Shown in pieces: positions 1,553 through 8,679 of a stretch of DNA of 11,594 bases. The stretch's first letter is position 1; each line of letters begins with the position of its first letter. Below the pieces are notes generated by a model. It ran no database searches, was not told where the DNA came from, and was given only the letters and a program-made list of their open reading frames with translations. A program made the translations under genes and the position numbers. The stretch lies in NCBI GenBank assembly GCA_946618745.1, contig CAMOLN010000011.1, forward strand, positions 1 through 11,594, read 5' to 3'. This stretch comes from an uncultured Alphaproteobacteria bacterium. Its GTDB lineage: Bacteria; Pseudomonadota; Alphaproteobacteria; RF32; CAG-239.

Positions 1553-1930
1553 ATGATTTGTATGATAGCTGACGACTCAAAAATTATGCGAATTCTGTTA
1601 GGAAAGATAGTCGGCAATTTGGGATATAAGGTAATTGAGGCTGAAAATGGCGATGAATTACTGAATAACTATGAAAATATTCAGCCCGATTTGGTTATTT
1701 GCGACTGGGAATTGCCTATGGTCGACGGAATTGATGTTCTTTATTCTATTCGTAACAACAAAAAAGTTAAACAACCGATATTTATGTTCTGTGCTTATGT
1801 GAAAGATACAGATGTTTTGCAAAAAGCATTGGAGGGCGGAGCAAATGATTTTATTATTCGACCGTTTGACGAAGATATTATTGCTTCAAAATTGAAGTTG
1901 GCATTATTAAAAAATAAAGGAATTATCTGA
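1553..1930 (+). CDS. Single-domain CheY-like response regulator with atypical active site
   Basis: Stand-alone receiver domain of 125 aa with no output domain, the size of CheY. The acidic pocket is present: Asp7-Asp8 in I-A-D-D-S-K, and phospho-acceptor Asp51 in VICDWELPMVDG. Two normally conserved switch residues differ. The Thr/Ser that ends strand 4 (Thr87 in E. coli CheY) is Cys80 in FMFCAY. The invariant Lys of the K-P-F motif (Lys109) is Arg103 in IIRPF. Phe100 stands at the Tyr106 position. It lacks the 'FATGY' motif of the alphaproteobacterial FAT GUY receivers. CGGAGA at 1541-1546 serves as the ribosome binding site. The stop overlaps the next start as TGATG, indicating translational coupling with the methyltransferase. 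It probably accepts phosphate from the ChpT-like protein and acts on motility or on the methyltransferase, but this is inference. No flagellar or other output partner is visible. Confidence 0.88.
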   Translation: MICMIADDSKIMRILLGKIVGNLGYKVIEAENGDELLNNYENIQPDLVICDWELPMVDGIDVLYSIRNNKKVKQPIFMFCAYVKDTDVLQKALEGGANDFIIRPFDEDIIASKLKLALLKNKGII

Positions 1931-2850
1931 TGTTAAAGAAAGATTTTGAGTTTTTGCTAAAGCTGATGAAAGAAAATGCAGGTTGGCATTTTGATGAAAA
2001 GAGTTATTTTATTATCGAAAAAAAAATTGCTAATTTTATCCGCGGTAAAAATTTCGGATCCGAGGAAGATTTGATTGATGAGCTTATGCTCGGAAATAAT
2101 CGCAATCTTATAAATCAGGTAGTGGAAGCGGTTGCTTTTTCCGATACTATGTTTTTTCGAGATGCCGAAGTTTTTGCCGATTTTAAAAATAAAGTTCTTC
2201 CTAAATTAAAGGATAAATGTCGATCTCGTAAAGAAATTAACGTGTGGAGTATAGGTTGTTCTAGCGGTCAGGAAACATACAGCATCGCTATAATATTTGA
2301 TAAATATAAAAAAATGTTTCAGAACTGGAAAATTAACATTTCCGGATCGGATATATCTATTGTAGCAATTAATAAATCGCAACGAGGGTTATATAACAAT
2401 TTTGAAATTCAAACCGGATTAAATATTGAAGATATATTGGAATATTTCAATCATAACGGAGATCAGTGGACAGCAAAAGATTTTTTACGGCAGAAAGTTG
2501 ATTTTCGTCATTATAATATTTTAGATGAAATTACCGGAACTAATAAGTTTGAAGTTATTTTCTGCCGTAATTTATTAAAATATTTTGATAAAGAACATCA
2601 AGATGAGATATTAAAAAAATTAAGTGAACGGCAACCTCAAGGCGGTTATTTGATATTGGGAAAAAATGAGAAAATACCGGCTTTGGATAAGTATTATTAT
2701 CCGGCATCCGGTATAAATGATATTTATCTCGCTATCGGTAAGCAGCAAACGGAAACAGTTTTTAACGGCAATATATCAATTTCATCTCCGGCAAACAATG
2801 ATGAAGAAGAGCAAATGCCCAGTTTTACCAGGCCTAAAGAATTCATTTGA
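1930..2850 (+). CDS. cheR: CheR-type chemoreceptor glutamate O-methyltransferase
   Basis: SAM-dependent methyltransferase of the CheR family, 306 aa. CheR methylates glutamates on the cytoplasmic helices of chemoreceptors for adaptation. Residues 1-65 are the small helical N-terminal domain. The linker has FSDTMFFRD (70-78), the counterpart of 'TNETSFFRE', with Arg77 at the position that contacts SAM. The Rossmann domain begins with VWSIGCSSGQETYSIA (105-120), the usual 'ACSTGEEPYSLA' motif with Gln114 replacing the first Glu; Glu115 is kept. Asp141 in SGSDIS fits the ribose-binding acid. FCRNLLKYFD (211-220) matches the family 'FCRNVLIYFD'. Residues 272-306 form a polar acidic tail without a clear receptor-tethering pentapeptide. 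AGGA at 1918-1921, inside the previous gene, is 8 bases before the ATG, and the two genes overlap by 1 bp. CheB and receptors are absent nearby. This is the last gene of the operon; no GC-rich terminator hairpin follows. Confidence 0.92.
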   Translation: MLKKDFEFLLKLMKENAGWHFDEKSYFIIEKKIANFIRGKNFGSEEDLIDELMLGNNRNLINQVVEAVAFSDTMFFRDAEVFADFKNKVLPKLKDKCRSRKEINVWSIGCSSGQETYSIAIIFDKYKKMFQNWKINISGSDISIVAINKSQRGLYNNFEIQTGLNIEDILEYFNHNGDQWTAKDFLRQKVDFRHYNILDEITGTNKFEVIFCRNLLKYFDKEHQDEILKKLSERQPQGGYLILGKNEKIPALDKYYYPASGINDIYLAIGKQQTETVFNGNISISSPANNDEEEQMPSFTRPKEFI

Positions 2851-2902
2851 TTTTATAAAATATCTTATTACGTTGACAATTGTTTTTGAATAACCCTGCT
2901 AA

Positions 2903-5900
2903 TTATTCCGGAATATTCATAGAGCATCCGTTAAGCGATGTAATATCAGGGATTGCGGTAATGTTAGTTCCATCTTCACTCCAAGACATAGATCCTATAT
3001 CTTCAATGGCAACAATACGTGCCGTGGTACCTGATGAAGATACCCAATAGATAATCCCGACAGGAGTTTTATCCGAGTGAGAATTGTTATAACTATCATA
3101 GGTTATAATTCCGTTATCACTATAGACGACATCGCCGACTTGCGGAGAGGATGCATTAGAAAGAGATGGTGAGGTAAAGCAATTTTCACAAAACTGAACA
3201 GCTCGAACATTAGCGGTATTATTCTTAAACTTGGTGGAACTGCCACCGGCTCCATTTATATGTACTACCCGAGCACTGTTACTATCAACTTCAGATGAAG
3301 ACCAATAATAATCGTTGGTTAAATCTGAACGTGATAGAGCGGATAAAGCGGCATTGATTGTGGATTTAACAACAGGTAGTCGGCGTAGCTCGCCAATAGC
3401 CGGAAGATACCAGTTGCCTGCCCCGAAATGACTGTCGGAACTACTAATATTACCAGGATAATATTGATTTGCAGCAACGGCAGCATAAGTTGTTTCTGAA
3501 GTTCCTAATTGTGCAACAATTGCTTGGGTATAAGCATAGCCATCATAAATCTGACAACTTAATACGGGATCACAAGCTGTATAATATCTGGTTCCGTTCA
3601 GCTCGCAATAGTCTTGCGGATCGGTAGGAGTTTGTCCGGTACAAGTTTCGGTATAATCAGAGGCACATTGACAAGTATTATAATACATGGGTGCCCCGGA
3701 AGCTGTTTGACAATAATCAGCTGTATCAGCCGGAACCAAATGATCTGAAGCACTACATGTCAAAGAATATCCGCTGTTGCACAAACAATTTCTATAATAA
3801 TTCTCAGTTCCGGATGGACCGGTAATTGAACATACATCATTGCTATCACCATGGATGTGATTATTGGAAGTGGCCTGACAGGTCTTGTTATAATCGCTGT
3901 TGCAAACGCAATGTTCATAAACGGTCGTTTCGTTTATAGTGCAACTTTCGGAAGTTGTATCAACTCCTTGTCCATTACCGGTACAAGTTGTCCAACCTGA
4001 CGGGCATTCACAGGATTGATAATAACTAATTCCACCGGAAACACAAGCTGCCCCAACACCGATTTGATTATTATTACAGGTGGTCCAACCATTGGAAATA
4101 TCGCAAGTAGAACAAGCGGTATAATATCTGGTTCCGTTAAGTTCGCAATAATCTTGCGGATCTGCCGGAATCTGTCCATCAGAGTTACATGTTTCGGTAT
4201 AGCCAGGAGCGCATTGGCAGGCGGTATAATATAAAGTTGATCCTGAAGCAGTTTGGCAATAATTATTGCTATCTGTCGGAACTAAATGATCCGAATTACT
4301 GCAAGTATATTCATATCCGCTGTCACATTGACAATTTCGATAATAATTTTCTGTGCCGGAAGCCCCGATAATTGAGCAAACATCACTGCTGTCGCCATGA
4401 ATATGATTGTTTAACGTTGCTTGGCATGTCTTATTATGACTACTGTCACAAACACAATTTTCATAAAACGTAATACCGCTGATAGTACACATTCCTAAAC
4501 TTGTGTTGCCAATCTGTCCGTTGCCATTACATCTTTCATAACTACTGTTACAATTACAGCTTTCATAGACAGTCACACCACTGGCAGTTTGGCAAGTTTG
4601 AGCCGAAGGATCTATCTCGTGATCCTCATCACAAATATTCCATCCTTCCGGACAAGTGCAAGACTGGTAATAACTGGTTCCACCAGAAACACAAGCTGTT
4701 CCCACACCGATTTGATTTCCCGTGCAAGCAGTCCAATCACTGGGAACTTCACATGAACAGGAGGTATAATATCTGGTTCCGTTAAGTTCGCAATAATCTT
4801 GCGGATCTGCCGGAGTTTCACCCTCACAAGTTTCTGTATACCCCGAAGCACATTGACAAGCATTGTAATAAACAGTTGCGCCAGAATTAGTTTGGCAATA
4901 ATCATTGGCGTCCACAGGGGCTAAATGATCAGAATTACTGCAAGTGAAAGTATAACCATTGTCGCATAAACAATTTTTATAATAATTTTCAGTTGCACCG
5001 GACGAATTGCTTATCGTACATACATCACTGCTGTCGCCATGAATATGATTATTGGATGTGGCTAAACACGACCGATTATAATCGCTTTTACAAATACAGT
5101 TTTCGTAAACCGTAGCCCCACCGTTTAAGGTGCACATTCCGGAAGTTGTATCACCGATTTGTCCATTACCGGTACATTCAATATAGTTACTGTTACAACG
5201 ACAGCTTTCATATACAGTTACACCATCATCAGTTTGACAAGATTGAGTTGAAGGATCAATTTCATGATTATCATCACATGTTGCCCACCCTGAAGGACAA
5301 GCACAGGATTGATAATAATCGACAACTCCGGAATTACAAGCATCTCCTACTCCGCTTTGATTGGCTCCCAAACAAGTATGCCAACCGCTATTGATATCGC
5401 ATTGACATCTCTTCCATAAAACATAATCACCTTTATCATCTTGACAGCCATAGCCACTCATACCGGTTTGCCCGACACCGTTACAAGTTTGAGTATACTC
5501 GGAGGTACAAACTATGGTATCGGAACATTGATACATTTTGCCGCCACATCCGTCATCTTTCCAAATACCGGTAGGATGAGCACCCGGAGAACAATTAAAA
5601 TAATTATTTGACCAATGATCCGGAATTTCATCTATATCACATTGACAAGATTCATAGTAATAACGCCCGTCAATCTGACAATAAGCACTGCCGGTTGAGG
5701 GAGAAACCCGATCATTATCATCACAAGTATATTTGAAACGTTCATTACATTTACAATAAGGATACAAATCAACCGAGTTTACCATAATGCGGTTATTAAC
5801 CGCGTCGTAAGGAACTTTATTTTTCCATTTATTAATCAGAGTATTTGAAGAATTTACATTCGATAAATCCTGAGTACAAGCCTTGCCGGTTACAGTAGCA

Positions 5901-7981
5901 TTACCGGAGCAAGTATAAACCGTATAGTTGTATAAACTCATGCAATTACATTCAGCCCAGCGTTTTTGTCCTTTATAAACTATATAATCTCCGGTAAGAT
6001 CATGACGAACCGAACAAACTACAGCACCATTATCTTTGGTGGTTGCATAGATATATTCCGATAAATTATAATAACAGTTATATTGCATTTCTGAATTACT
6101 ATCTGTCGAAATACAAGATTGAACCGAGGCGGCACGACCATATTGATTATAACATTGCTCAGGAGAAGACACCTGATAAATTTTAAAACTATCCGAAGCA
6201 TTTATCATACTGTAACCGGAGCCGTTCGAAACCATAACCGACATACCACAGATTCCACTATTTGTTCCGCTTTGACAATATTTGGTCGGAGATGATGTTG
6301 CGGCCTCTTCACGCATGGTGGAAGAACTGTCACGTCCGTGAACACACCAATCAGTCGGGGTATCAACAATCCCGCAAATAAAAGCATATTCATTACCGCA
6401 TGTTATCTGCCATTTCATAGTTCCGTCGGATACACATCTGCTTATTTGAGCAGACGGACCATAAGTGTTGTGCAGTTCGTTAACTGTGGTACCTGAAAAA
6501 GCTACCAATGCCAAATATTGCCCTTCTGAACGGCATAAATTGTCAAGATTATTGGGATCTAAAGTCCAGGAGGTATATTTAGTTCCGCTCAAATCACTGC
6601 TGGTATCATCATAGTTACACCCTGCGCCAACCCCGATATAATGGTCTGTATCGCAATTTTCGGTAATATTATTGGCAGCACACCATTCGTTTAATGTAAC
6701 CAATCCGCTTTGGCAAACGCAATGTTTACAATAATTTACACCGCCACAAGAATAACTTTCTTCTTCAATGTCGGAACAAACACCATTATTACTTTGACAT
6801 TCGGTTTCCGAATAAACACCGTCAGTTGCATTGAAACTATGTTTTAATCCGCAACGAATAAAGGTTGATTTAGCATTATCGGTATTATAACAAATATCAA
6901 GTGAAGCTGATAAGGGAGCCGCAGCAACTGCTTCAGAATAAGAATTGTATAACGGGGAAATATAATAACCGGCTGCTTCTTCTGCCGCGGTAAAAGAACT
7001 GCAAGTTTGTAAATAATACCAACCTTGGCAAAGCGGAGTTATATCGGAACTACCGGATATACCGCATTCAATCAAACACTCACTGATATGATAGTCGGCA
7101 TTGTCCGGAGCTATGTCGGCATAAGGGCGATAAAGATAATAACGAGATGTGGCGTTGGACGGCAAATCATCAAAACCATCCATAGAATAAGAATTACGTG
7201 ATGAAGATGTTTCTCTTTGATTGCGTAAGGAATTGCAATTTTGCAATCCGTGAGAGTTGAGTTGATAATCAAGAGAATTATGATAATCTGTTTGATTATT
7301 TCCACCGGGAGTATAAACGCATAACTTGACGAAATATTCGTTGTTATAATAATTATTTCCCGGTTTAATACAATTAATATTATTTGATTCCCCAAGTAAC
7401 GTCAAGTTTGTTGATGAAGAAGAACAAGTCAAATTGCGAGATGATGAATAATAACTTTGTGATATAGGATTGAGAGTAAATTCTGAAACTGCATCAGCTA
7501 ACTTAACCGGACAAAAATAATCTACATCCGAAAAGTAATAATAATTACTCTGATTAGGAATTAAAGTTAACGAACTGTCGGCGCTCACTCCCAAACCACG
7601 AGCATAGCCACTGTAATTTATTGTGCTGTGATAATGTAATTGCGAATCACATAAGGCGATATTCGTATTGTCGGCAGCACAATTGCAATAAACCGTATCC
7701 TCCGATGAACTACTGAAATTATGATATTGACAAGATGAATAATTTTCGCAATCAGAAAAATAACAGGACGGATAAGATTCTCCTTCATAAAGCAAACCAC
7801 CGCCATTTTCCGAATCTGCCGACGGACTATCAAGAGAAGGCTCATCAGTATTAGATGCTCCTAATGTTCGCATACCGCCTTTGGCTGCAAACGGCGTATC
7901 ATTAATCGAAACCACGCCGGCATAAGTAAACAGCGGGCAACATAAAATAAAAAACAAAAACAACCAAAATTTTTTATTCAT
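2903..7981 (-). CDS. Giant Sec-exported cysteine-rich repeat protein with DUF1566/Lcl-like C-terminus
   Basis: Predicted exported protein of 1,692 aa. Residues 1-21 are a Sec signal peptide: N-K-K, hydrophobic LFLFFILCC, then likely cleavage after T-Y-A. The cysteines there do not form a lipobox. Residues 22 to about 740 are non-periodic, rich in Ser, Tyr, Asn and Cys. From about 740 to 1475 the chain is built of units of about 35 residues, each of the form C...C...Y-x-x-C-x-C. The last three groups form a higher-order repeat with signature pieces GNQIGVG, DHEIDPS, GNGQIG, NNHIHGDS, DHLVP and PQDYCELNGTRYY. Residues 1476-1600 resemble DUF1566/Lcl_C (GNWYLPAIGEL, YYWSSSE, NVRAVQFC). A 90-residue tail holds GDVVYSD and KTPVGIIYW. 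Export and regular paired cysteines suggest a disulfide-braced surface stalk or adhesin; function is inferred. I prefer ATG 7981 over a TTG at 7999 because the former has a spaced Shine-Dalgarno site and puts the signal peptide first. It converges with cheR, 52 bp away. Confidence 0.9.
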   Translation of the reverse strand: MNKKFWLFLFFILCCPLFTYAGVVSINDTPFAAKGGMRTLGASNTDEPSLDSPSADSENGGGLLYEGESYPSCYFSDCENYSSCQYHNFSSSSEDTVYCNCAADNTNIALCDSQLHYHSTINYSGYARGLGVSADSSLTLIPNQSNYYYFSDVDYFCPVKLADAVSEFTLNPISQSYYSSSRNLTCSSSSTNLTLLGESNNINCIKPGNNYYNNEYFVKLCVYTPGGNNQTDYHNSLDYQLNSHGLQNCNSLRNQRETSSSRNSYSMDGFDDLPSNATSRYYLYRPYADIAPDNADYHISECLIECGISGSSDITPLCQGWYYLQTCSSFTAAEEAAGYYISPLYNSYSEAVAAAPLSASLDICYNTDNAKSTFIRCGLKHSFNATDGVYSETECQSNNGVCSDIEEESYSCGGVNYCKHCVCQSGLVTLNEWCAANNITENCDTDHYIGVGAGCNYDDTSSDLSGTKYTSWTLDPNNLDNLCRSEGQYLALVAFSGTTVNELHNTYGPSAQISRCVSDGTMKWQITCGNEYAFICGIVDTPTDWCVHGRDSSSTMREEAATSSPTKYCQSGTNSGICGMSVMVSNGSGYSMINASDSFKIYQVSSPEQCYNQYGRAASVQSCISTDSNSEMQYNCYYNLSEYIYATTKDNGAVVCSVRHDLTGDYIVYKGQKRWAECNCMSLYNYTVYTCSGNATVTGKACTQDLSNVNSSNTLINKWKNKVPYDAVNNRIMVNSVDLYPYCKCNERFKYTCDDNDRVSPSTGSAYCQIDGRYYYESCQCDIDEIPDHWSNNYFNCSPGAHPTGIWKDDGCGGKMYQCSDTIVCTSEYTQTCNGVGQTGMSGYGCQDDKGDYVLWKRCQCDINSGWHTCLGANQSGVGDACNSGVVDYYQSCACPSGWATCDDNHEIDPSTQSCQTDDGVTVYESCRCNSNYIECTGNGQIGDTTSGMCTLNGGATVYENCICKSDYNRSCLATSNNHIHGDSSDVCTISNSSGATENYYKNCLCDNGYTFTCSNSDHLAPVDANDYCQTNSGATVYYNACQCASGYTETCEGETPADPQDYCELNGTRYYTSCSCEVPSDWTACTGNQIGVGTACVSGGTSYYQSCTCPEGWNICDEDHEIDPSAQTCQTASGVTVYESCNCNSSYERCNGNGQIGNTSLGMCTISGITFYENCVCDSSHNKTCQATLNNHIHGDSSDVCSIIGASGTENYYRNCQCDSGYEYTCSNSDHLVPTDSNNYCQTASGSTLYYTACQCAPGYTETCNSDGQIPADPQDYCELNGTRYYTACSTCDISNGWTTCNNNQIGVGAACVSGGISYYQSCECPSGWTTCTGNGQGVDTTSESCTINETTVYEHCVCNSDYNKTCQATSNNHIHGDSNDVCSITGPSGTENYYRNCLCNSGYSLTCSASDHLVPADTADYCQTASGAPMYYNTCQCASDYTETCTGQTPTDPQDYCELNGTRYYTACDPVLSCQIYDGYAYTQAIVAQLGTSETTYAAVAANQYYPGNISSSDSHFGAGNWYLPAIGELRRLPVVKSTINAALSALSRSDLTNDYYWSSSEVDSNSARVVHINGAGGSSTKFKNNTANVRAVQFCENCFTSPSLSNASSPQVGDVVYSDNGIITYDSYNNSHSDKTPVGIIYWVSSSGTTARIVAIEDIGSMSWSEDGTNITAIPDITSLNGCSMNIPE
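3560..4098 (-). repeat. Higher-order repeat copy 3 (five units, 20 Cys, one unit missing)
   Basis: The copy nearest the C-terminus keeps units a, c, d, e and f (NQIGVGAAC, GNGQGVDTT, NNHIHGDSNDVC, SDHLVPAD, PQDYCELNGTRYY) but has no DHEIDPS unit. The landmark tataatatctggttccgtt lies at 3580, 540 bp from its partner in copy 2 instead of 645. The 105-bp difference is exactly one 35-codon unit. Its last unit runs directly into the DUF1566-like domain. Confidence 0.82.
4099..4744 (-). repeat. Higher-order repeat copy 2 (six units, 24 Cys)
   Basis: Second copy, with the same six-unit order as copy 1: NQIGVGTAC, DHEIDPSAQ, GNGQIGNTS, NNHIHGDSSDVC, SDHLVPTD, PQDYCELNGTRYY. It is closer to copy 3 than copy 1 in the d and e units (GTENYYRNC, QTASG). 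The f unit has two extra residues before PADPQDYC compared with the other copies. Landmark spacing to copy 1 is 645 bp. Confidence 0.85.
4745..5395 (-). repeat. Higher-order repeat copy 1 (six units, 24 Cys)
   Basis: This is the N-terminal-most copy, about 645 bp and 215 codons. Unit order, by signature, is NQSGVGDAC, NHEIDPSTQ, GNGQIGDT, NNHIHGDSSDVC, SDHLAPVD, PQDYCELNGTRYY. The DNA is also conserved. On the + strand, the string ctgtcgccatgaatatgatt in this copy recurs exactly about 642 bp away in copy 2. The string tataatatctggttccgtta at 4765 recurs exactly at 4120. Boundaries are approximate, set where the f-type unit gives way to the next a-type unit. Confidence 0.85.
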
Positions 7982-7995: not shown

Positions 7996-7999
7996 GCAA

Positions 8000-8016: not shown

Positions 8017-8095
8017 CATAATAATATAGTTTTTGTAAAAATTTGCAATAAATATTTATATTTTGTTAATCATTTAACGAGTATTATTTTAGGTC

Positions 8096-8133
8096 AAAAA
8101 AAATTCCGACCAGGCCTGAAACGCCTAATCGGG
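8096..8133 (-). terminator. Rho-independent terminator after the 179-residue gene
   Basis: Read on the minus strand, CCGATTAGGC (8132-8123) pairs with GCCTGGTCGG (8115-8106). This is a 10-bp stem with two G-U pairs and a 7-base loop, followed by two A and eight U (8103-8096). The stem is perfect only as minus-strand RNA; on the plus strand the two wobbles become A-C mismatches. It therefore serves the 8140-8679 gene and insulates the giant gene from read-through. Confidence 0.85.
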
Positions 8134-8139
8134 ATTTTT

Positions 8140-8679
8140 TTACATATGGTAATCTTCATATGTTTCTTCAAAGAACTTCCGCCAATTGTCTTCACCGAAA
8201 TGTCGGTCTAAGATATCTTCCTCAATTCCGGTAAATACTTTAAACAAGTCAGGATCAAGCTGCATATTAATCAGCTTTTTCTTGAGGTTATCAACCCAAT
8301 TTAGATGCCTCTCGTCCCCCTCCCATTGTTTTTCGAAATCACATTCTGCAAAAGTTTGCACCTCGTAGAACTCCCTTGATGGGATGTAGGCGCGTCCCTT
8401 ACCCGGATGCTTGCCTTTGAGAGGCCTAACGCGGTCATCTTTGGTGGCTTGGGTCAGGTCACCATGAAGATAGCCGACTTTGACGCGGCCGTCACCATAG
8501 TCCATGATAACGTAGCCATGATACCACTCTCGTTCTTTGAGAGGATTGGCAGTTAGCTTAGGAAGGTCAGCTTTGACAAACCTAACGGCCTGCTCTTGAG
8601 TGACCTTGTAAACCTTGAAACCGCCAAAAAACCATACATAACGCATGGGACGACGGCAACCTTCAATAGAAATTTTCAT
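8140..8679 (-). CDS. Hypothetical protein, 179 aa
   Basis: I do not recognise a family. The protein is soluble-looking, with no signal peptide and no membrane segment. It is rich in aromatic and charged residues. Residues 13-75 look beta-rich (RYVWFFGGFKVYKV, then WYHGYVIMDYGDGRVKVGYLHGD). Residues 76-105 are basic and Gly/Pro-rich (KGKHPGKGRAYIP). Residues 110-179 are acidic and helical, ending in EETYEDYHM. The ATG at 8679 has no obvious Shine-Dalgarno sequence. Met12 is a possible alternative start, but its nearest purine-rich site is too far away. Base use is clearly less AT-rich than the chemotaxis operon. It lies 70 bp downstream of the GNAT gene on the same strand and is closed by a strong terminator. 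It could be co-transcribed with GNAT or driven by its own promoter, listed separately. It is a plausible real gene because of its length, its terminator and a clean frame. Confidence 0.72.
   Translation of the reverse strand: MKISIEGCRRPMRYVWFFGGFKVYKVTQEQAVRFVKADLPKLTANPLKEREWYHGYVIMDYGDGRVKVGYLHGDLTQATKDDRVRPLKGKHPGKGRAYIPSREFYEVQTFAECDFEKQWEGDERHLNWVDNLKKKLINMQLDPDLFKVFTGIEEDILDRHFGEDNWRKFFEETYEDYHM

Follow-up and report, generated by a model that had tools for sequence, protein, structure and literature searches.

What is the work of a giant exported protein that carries 128 cysteines, and what part does its C-terminal domain have in that work? The question is raised by a stretch of 11,594 nucleotides from an uncultured alphaproteobacterium, here called the window, which is contig 11 of a 1.12-Mb assembly of 197 contigs (genome G000, 85% complete). 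The window protein, P0001, was compared to the giant protein of RUG10672 (P0002, genome G007) and to those of further relatives. The anatomy of P0001 points to a surface adhesin with a disulfide-braced stalk, and we consider it probable that the protein is a Sec-exported adhesin of stalk-and-head plan, in which a Cys-rich rod would be followed by a permuted lectin-like head.

The cysteine-unit stalk and its family

P0001 begins with a signal-like N-terminus of the Sec type, MNKKFWLFLFFILCCPLFTYAG, as the initial annotation had claimed. The count of about twenty four-Cys units given there was borne out by 17 regular units and about three irregular ones, the latter read by eye at residues 743-858. 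P0001 contains 16 occurrences of the unit motif Y..C.C-x(5-14)-C-x(9-16)-C, compared to a mean of 0.2 and a maximum of 3 in 2000 shuffles. For the shorter CxC the count is 21 and the mean over the shuffles 9.5; because the shuffle maximum was 23, the CxC count alone is not decisive. The six-unit super-repeat that had been described was likewise recovered: two full copies and a third with five units are 69-72% identical at the protein level and 72-74% at the DNA level. Six unit types recur in fixed order across the copies, and one unit of the third copy resembles types B and C fused together.

As had been anticipated, the unit type falls outside the named families. No Pfam, NCBIfam or PHROG profile matched the Cys units in the proteins scanned. 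In Pfam at an E-value of 0.1, P0001 was without a match besides Lcl_C and five other giants were without a unit match, none of the EGF, TIL, VWC or other Pfam Cys-rich profiles matching the units in these proteins; an autotransporter or intimin/invasin beta-barrel translocator domain was also not found in P0001 by this search. A structural model of residues 421-1144 (pLDDT 80, pTM 0.40) predicted short beta-strands recurring along the chain. Foldseek and VIA returned no significant solved relative for this long query of 724 residues, and a PDB sequence search with the repeat stretch gave immunoglobulin rows only, at E 0.12 or worse.

When 94 genomes were searched, the window's own and 93 relatives, 30 of the 35 within the genus gave matches, compared to 6 of 19 others of the same family and 0 of 40 outside the family. 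Matches outside the genus were mostly to the C-terminal head, with unit-like ones in G035 and G044 only, and the stalk family was seen in 24 genomes of one genus. The loci taken from other genomes of the genus number 23, were picked because of their matches, and carry a single Cys-rich giant apiece; these proteins measure 820-2,559 aa, and a contig end truncates two of them. The protein database holds 30 giants, P0001 included, of 1,217-2,454 aa, all with a start that looks signal-like by eye. Between residues 421 and 1144, 55 of 66 cysteines are kept in at least 90% of these 30 proteins, compared to 60 of the 658 other residues, a retention expected of disulfide-braced modules. Judged from sequence, these giant Cys-rich exported proteins are a real family, one that lacks a named domain. 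The source is named for two of the database giants, one from an Alphaproteobacteria bacterium and one (P0017, partial) from a Lachnospiraceae metagenome-assembled genome (MAG), and the latter label may reflect either a binning error or a wider spread.

In the reading that we favor, the N-terminal stretch of about 1,470 residues would be a fast-evolving rod of small beta-rich four-Cys units, braced by disulfides and conserved in its cysteines, and would keep the head at a distance from the cell. The initial annotation had found such a protein unexpected on the premise of a free-living host. Among the 21 relative loci with names, three belong to RUG10672, RUG14511, and RUG10873, one is from roe deer caecum, and 17 have titles without a habitat. 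RUG names denote rumen MAG sets, and the rumen and caecum relatives make the free-living premise doubtful. Our literature search returned no paper dealing with these hosts or with Cys-rich adhesins of this kind.

A circularly permuted Lcl_C-type head

The plan of a stalk with a head resembling that of the Legionella collagen-like protein (Lcl), also proposed at first, stood up to closer comparison. Residues 1516-1595 matched the Pfam family Lcl_C (PF07603) with an E-value of 2.8e-6 and 28.0 bits, below the gathering cut-off of 34.9, and homology of the head domain extends past this match toward the C-terminus. The core motifs of Lcl_C are present as WYLP (1524-1527), YWSS-E (1559-1564), and a conserved Arg, R1593, which is invariant in 68 of 68 aligned rows. 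The paralogue search suggested in the initial annotation yielded a head paralogue in the same genome, on C140, with a PF07603 score of 35.8 bits. At this locus (L048), near base 600 of the minus strand, a 455-aa exported Cys frame overlaps the next frame, which has Cys units and Lcl_C, at a G7 tract, which may reflect either slippage at a phase-variable locus or a frameshift introduced in assembly.

Comparison of domain order showed, at the level of sequence, that the head of P0001 is circularly permuted relative to canonical Lcl_C, in which part B precedes part A. The canonical order was found in L058, L065, and L066; part A comes before part B in P0001, P0002, the flagellin L055, and L063. 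Flagellins of the same genus with an inserted Lcl_C share this permuted domain at 34-43% identity to the P0001 head (alignment A1), differing in that they carry it between Flagellin_N and Flagellin_C rather than on a Cys stalk.

The model of the head (pLDDT 91) had adhesin tips as its top structural matches, with modest Z, and may be C-type-lectin-like; its A half was matched to the Lcl structure 8q4e. Compared to P0001, the Bdellovibrio MAT fiber tip Bd2740 (PDB 8oks) has another stalk and 13% sequence identity. When the single head sequence was run against PDB sequences, no match came up at E up to 1, and a profile of the whole matches (alignment A1) reached only flagellins. With a seven-row head profile, the sole PDB sequence at E up to 1 was the C-terminal domain of Lcl, 8q4e (E 0.015), in a weak match that aligns 41 residues without a gap and has YWSS-E and VR as its anchors.

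That match is what speaks for P0001 as a functional equivalent of Lcl that binds sulfated glycosaminoglycans (GAGs), the ligand suggested in the initial annotation. The Lcl C-terminal domain is described in the cited text as having a C-type-lectin-like fold, with Lys369, 380, 385, and 391 binding GAGs (PMC11162425). By a mapping worked out by hand with a chain numbering offset of 236, these four residues align with V1565, G1577, S1582, and N1588 of P0001, so that none of the four lysines is kept, and all four positions lie in hypervariable columns. This argues against GAG binding while marking the probable ligand face, and we rejected GAG binding by analogy with Lcl on these residues. P0001 shares the stalk-and-head plan of Lcl and further differs from it in its permuted domain, in its Pfam score under the cut-off, and in having a stalk of four-Cys units where Lcl has one of collagen; Pfam revealed no collagen-like repeat region. 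Equivalence to Lcl is accordingly very improbable in our estimate. In the favored reading, the C-terminal 220 residues would form a permuted C-type-lectin-like domain contacting its ligand through the face of residues 1565-1591.

A different question is whether the head matters at all. Sought by motif only, it was found in the giants of the window and RUG10672 and was negative in 22 of 24 loci (one of them, L042, with a C-terminus that runs off the contig) and in 28 of 30 database giants. The giant gene also occupies two main genomic settings. In the window and in 3 of the 20 other loci it is flanked by ChpT/CheY/CheR and GNAT/LepA; 16 of the 20 have it next to an RND pump gene, and 1 of the 20 has it in neither setting. 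The headless majority and the two settings indicate that the stalk alone is the conserved part, as would suit a structural scaffold of the envelope or cell surface, such as a sheath or coat, whose function would rest on the Cys units, the head having been fused to the C-terminus by accident. We give this explanation a small but real chance. Against it, several other proteins of the genus also have this head behind Cys units, and the head frame is still open in both the window and RUG10672. The two giants are 77% identical in the core, 61-62% in the N-terminal region and units, 46-49% in the head outside the segment resembling a variable region, and 23% in that segment, compared to 99% for LepA, 87% for CheR, and 79% for ChpT. 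Because dS was saturated against RUG10672 (1.4 to infinite for the head and unit segments), only this identity gradient was used, and no claim of positive selection by dN/dS is made. As part of the stalk-and-head adhesin, the head may have been acquired once the lineage had parted from RUG14511/RUG10873, or it may have been lost in those two.

Retroelements and the head family in the genus

The segment of low identity is the equivalent of the variable region in targets of diversity-generating retroelements (DGRs). In the literature cited here, DUF1566 is reported as the commonest DGR target domain (PMC4159848, PMC6642488), flagellin is named among DGR target annotations in one sentence, and most annotated DGR target genes encode hypothetical proteins (PMC6642488). 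Our search for literature on DUF1566-bearing or DGR-diversified flagellins covered open-license PMC papers.

Ten of the 35 genus genomes have a match to the reverse transcriptase (RT) profile RVT_1, though not every one is DGR-like. In three genomes a template repeat adjoining the RT matches a head-bearing gene, and the mismatches fall largely on template adenines (17 of 22 in G014, 17 of 21 in G028, and 13 of 15 in G002), fractions that are biased upward by a search score favoring such mismatches. In G014 and G028 the target is a short exported protein that carries the domain C-terminally, and in G002 it is a flagellin. There, locus L087 (G002:C2:132000-148000) holds the flagellin with internal Lcl_C at 2520-4880, the RT at 5434-6837, and the template at 6856-6974. 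In G002, the filament itself thus seems to act as a scaffold for DGR display. In G019 and G032 a template-like PF07603 match lies beside an RT by coordinates.

Across 68 aligned sequences, the segment equivalent to the variable region is hypervariable, with a mean column entropy of 2.61 compared to 1.20 in the rest of the domain. Of the 32 columns mapped, 19 were chosen by entropy as hypervariable, and the 13 AAY codons of the G002 template land without exception on 13 of these 19 (hypergeometric P 8e-5); the last few columns are shifted by one. The search for homologues of a flagellin-borne head returned 291 proteins, and among the 120 matches listed were 96 flagellins (84 by motif and 12 by eye) and 24 Cys-bearing exported proteins. 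The head would be a mobile module of the genus, present inside flagellins and on shorter Cys-unit proteins in sister species, and in some genomes a retroelement would rewrite, on homologous heads, exactly the face proposed to meet the ligand. What the sequences show is the anatomy, the family, the permuted order, and the pairs of template and variable region on homologous heads; adhesion, ligand contact, surface display, and disulfide bonding are inferred.

P0001 is related to DGR variable proteins with DUF1566 in that homologous heads of the genus have template and variable-region pairs; it differs in that its head is permuted, stands on a giant Cys stalk, and is without a detected RT or template in its own genome. 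Neither G000 nor G007, which is 96% complete, has an RVT_1 match, and in assembled G000 PF07603 matched only C140, C65, and the window, with no free-standing template-like match. An RT in the missing 15% of the genome, or one acting in trans, might still diversify the head, and the segment being the least conserved part against P0002 would agree with this, as would the 16 of 19 variable codons that end in C or T (NNY). The latter count is close to the gene background of 0.68, however, and is uninformative on DGR action. Two strongly conserved framework residues are also changed in P0001 (W1571R and R1581S). With no RT or template found, we regard continuing diversification as improbable, and the head of P0001 looks, from these sequence features, like an orphan of the DGR head family.

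Several further loci carry related elements. G004 (L055, L056) has 20 Flagellin_N and 13 PF07603 matches, with many frames having both, and no RT match. At G007:C22:6624-7562, one 613-aa frame matches Flagellin_N and Lcl_C, so RUG10672 carries the domain on a flagellin as well as on its giant. L084 and L085 (G019:C136, G013:C2) hold prophage RTs by phage tail genes, adjoined by a 495-aa protein whose C-termini differ between the phages, and are likely prophage DGRs of another target type. In L088 (G017:C14:1-12000; 3925-5269), a small open reading frame (ORF) directly downstream of an RT ends in a variable-looking motif of WSAS type, possibly a DGR with a different target.

Gene setting, oxidation, and biological meaning

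The giant gene appears to stand alone, given the terminator-like stem that separates it from the upstream gene and its own AGGA located 10 nt 5' of the ATG (Table 1). The mechanical start of the ORF is an in-frame TTG at 7999, 18 nt before this ATG. Sites with a sigma-70-like consensus numbered 35 in the region, compared to 21 expected. A 307-aa protein without a confident family, encoded at 14-937 of the plus strand, adjoins ChpT/CheY/CheR in the window and in three other loci of the subclade.

Table 1. Features of the giant gene and its surroundings, in window coordinates
Feature	Position	Strand	Basis or remark
Gene for the 1692-aa giant Cys-rich exported protein (P0001)	2903..7981	-	ORF from ATG
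Signal peptide-like N-terminus, residues 1-22	7916..7981	-	Sequence; by-eye similarity to N-termini of 30 giants
N-terminal Cys-rich region, residues 23-420	6722..7915	-	Residues 1-420 62% identical to P0002
Conserved core of the giant family, residues 421-858, with irregular Cys units	5408..6721	-	77% identical to P0002
Array of 17 regular four-Cys units, residues 859-1471	3569..5407	-	Unit motif
Super-repeat copy 1, residues 859-1074, six units	4760..5407	-	Repeat comparison
Super-repeat copy 2, residues 1075-1289, six units	4115..4759	-	Repeat comparison
Super-repeat copy 3, residues 1290-1470, five units	3572..4114	-	Repeat comparison
Head part A, residues 1476-1600, Lcl_C/DUF1566-type half	3182..3556	-	WYLPAIGEL and YYWSSSE motifs; Pfam
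Segment equivalent to DGR variable region, residues 1565-1591	3209..3289	-	Alignment to DGR heads
Head part B, residues 1601-1692	2906..3181	-	First in canonical order, last in P0001 (circular permutation)
Possible sigma-70-like promoter, TTGCAA-16-TATTAT	8021..8048	-	Consensus match only
Terminator-like stem between upstream gene (8140-8679) and giant gene	8106..8132	-	Sequence
Neighboring CheR-type methyltransferase	1930..2850	+	In ChpT/CheY/CheR block adjoining giant gene in this subclade

The Cys load had been taken to imply an active oxidation system, and this held in part. Pfam profiles detected DsbA-type proteins in all 33 genus genomes searched, including two in G000 with CGYC and CSHC and hydrophobic N-termini. 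The other part was not found: DsbB and VKOR profiles each matched in 0 of 33 genus genomes, the same searches matching in 6 of 14 and 3 of 14 control genomes, respectively. Exported proteins in the genus nonetheless have up to 212 cysteines although neither DsbB nor VKOR was detected by profile. The analysis makes it testable how dozens of disulfides per molecule would be closed in a genus where DsbA-type proteins are present and neither DsbB nor VKOR was detected, and likewise what ligand the diversified face would bind.

That DUF1566 is a DGR target domain is already known and published. Within one genus, the same head family is found here on three scaffolds, with and without a retroelement, together with a Cys-rich stalk family that has no profile match. 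We tentatively put forward, as a possibility short of an even chance, that a single mobile, permuted, and retroelement-diversified lectin-like head is shared among short exported proteins, the flagellar filament, and the giant stalk, with P0001 as the stalk form whose variable face is either frozen or still rewritten after DGR action. If true, this head would amount to a bacterial surface repertoire with interchangeable scaffolds.
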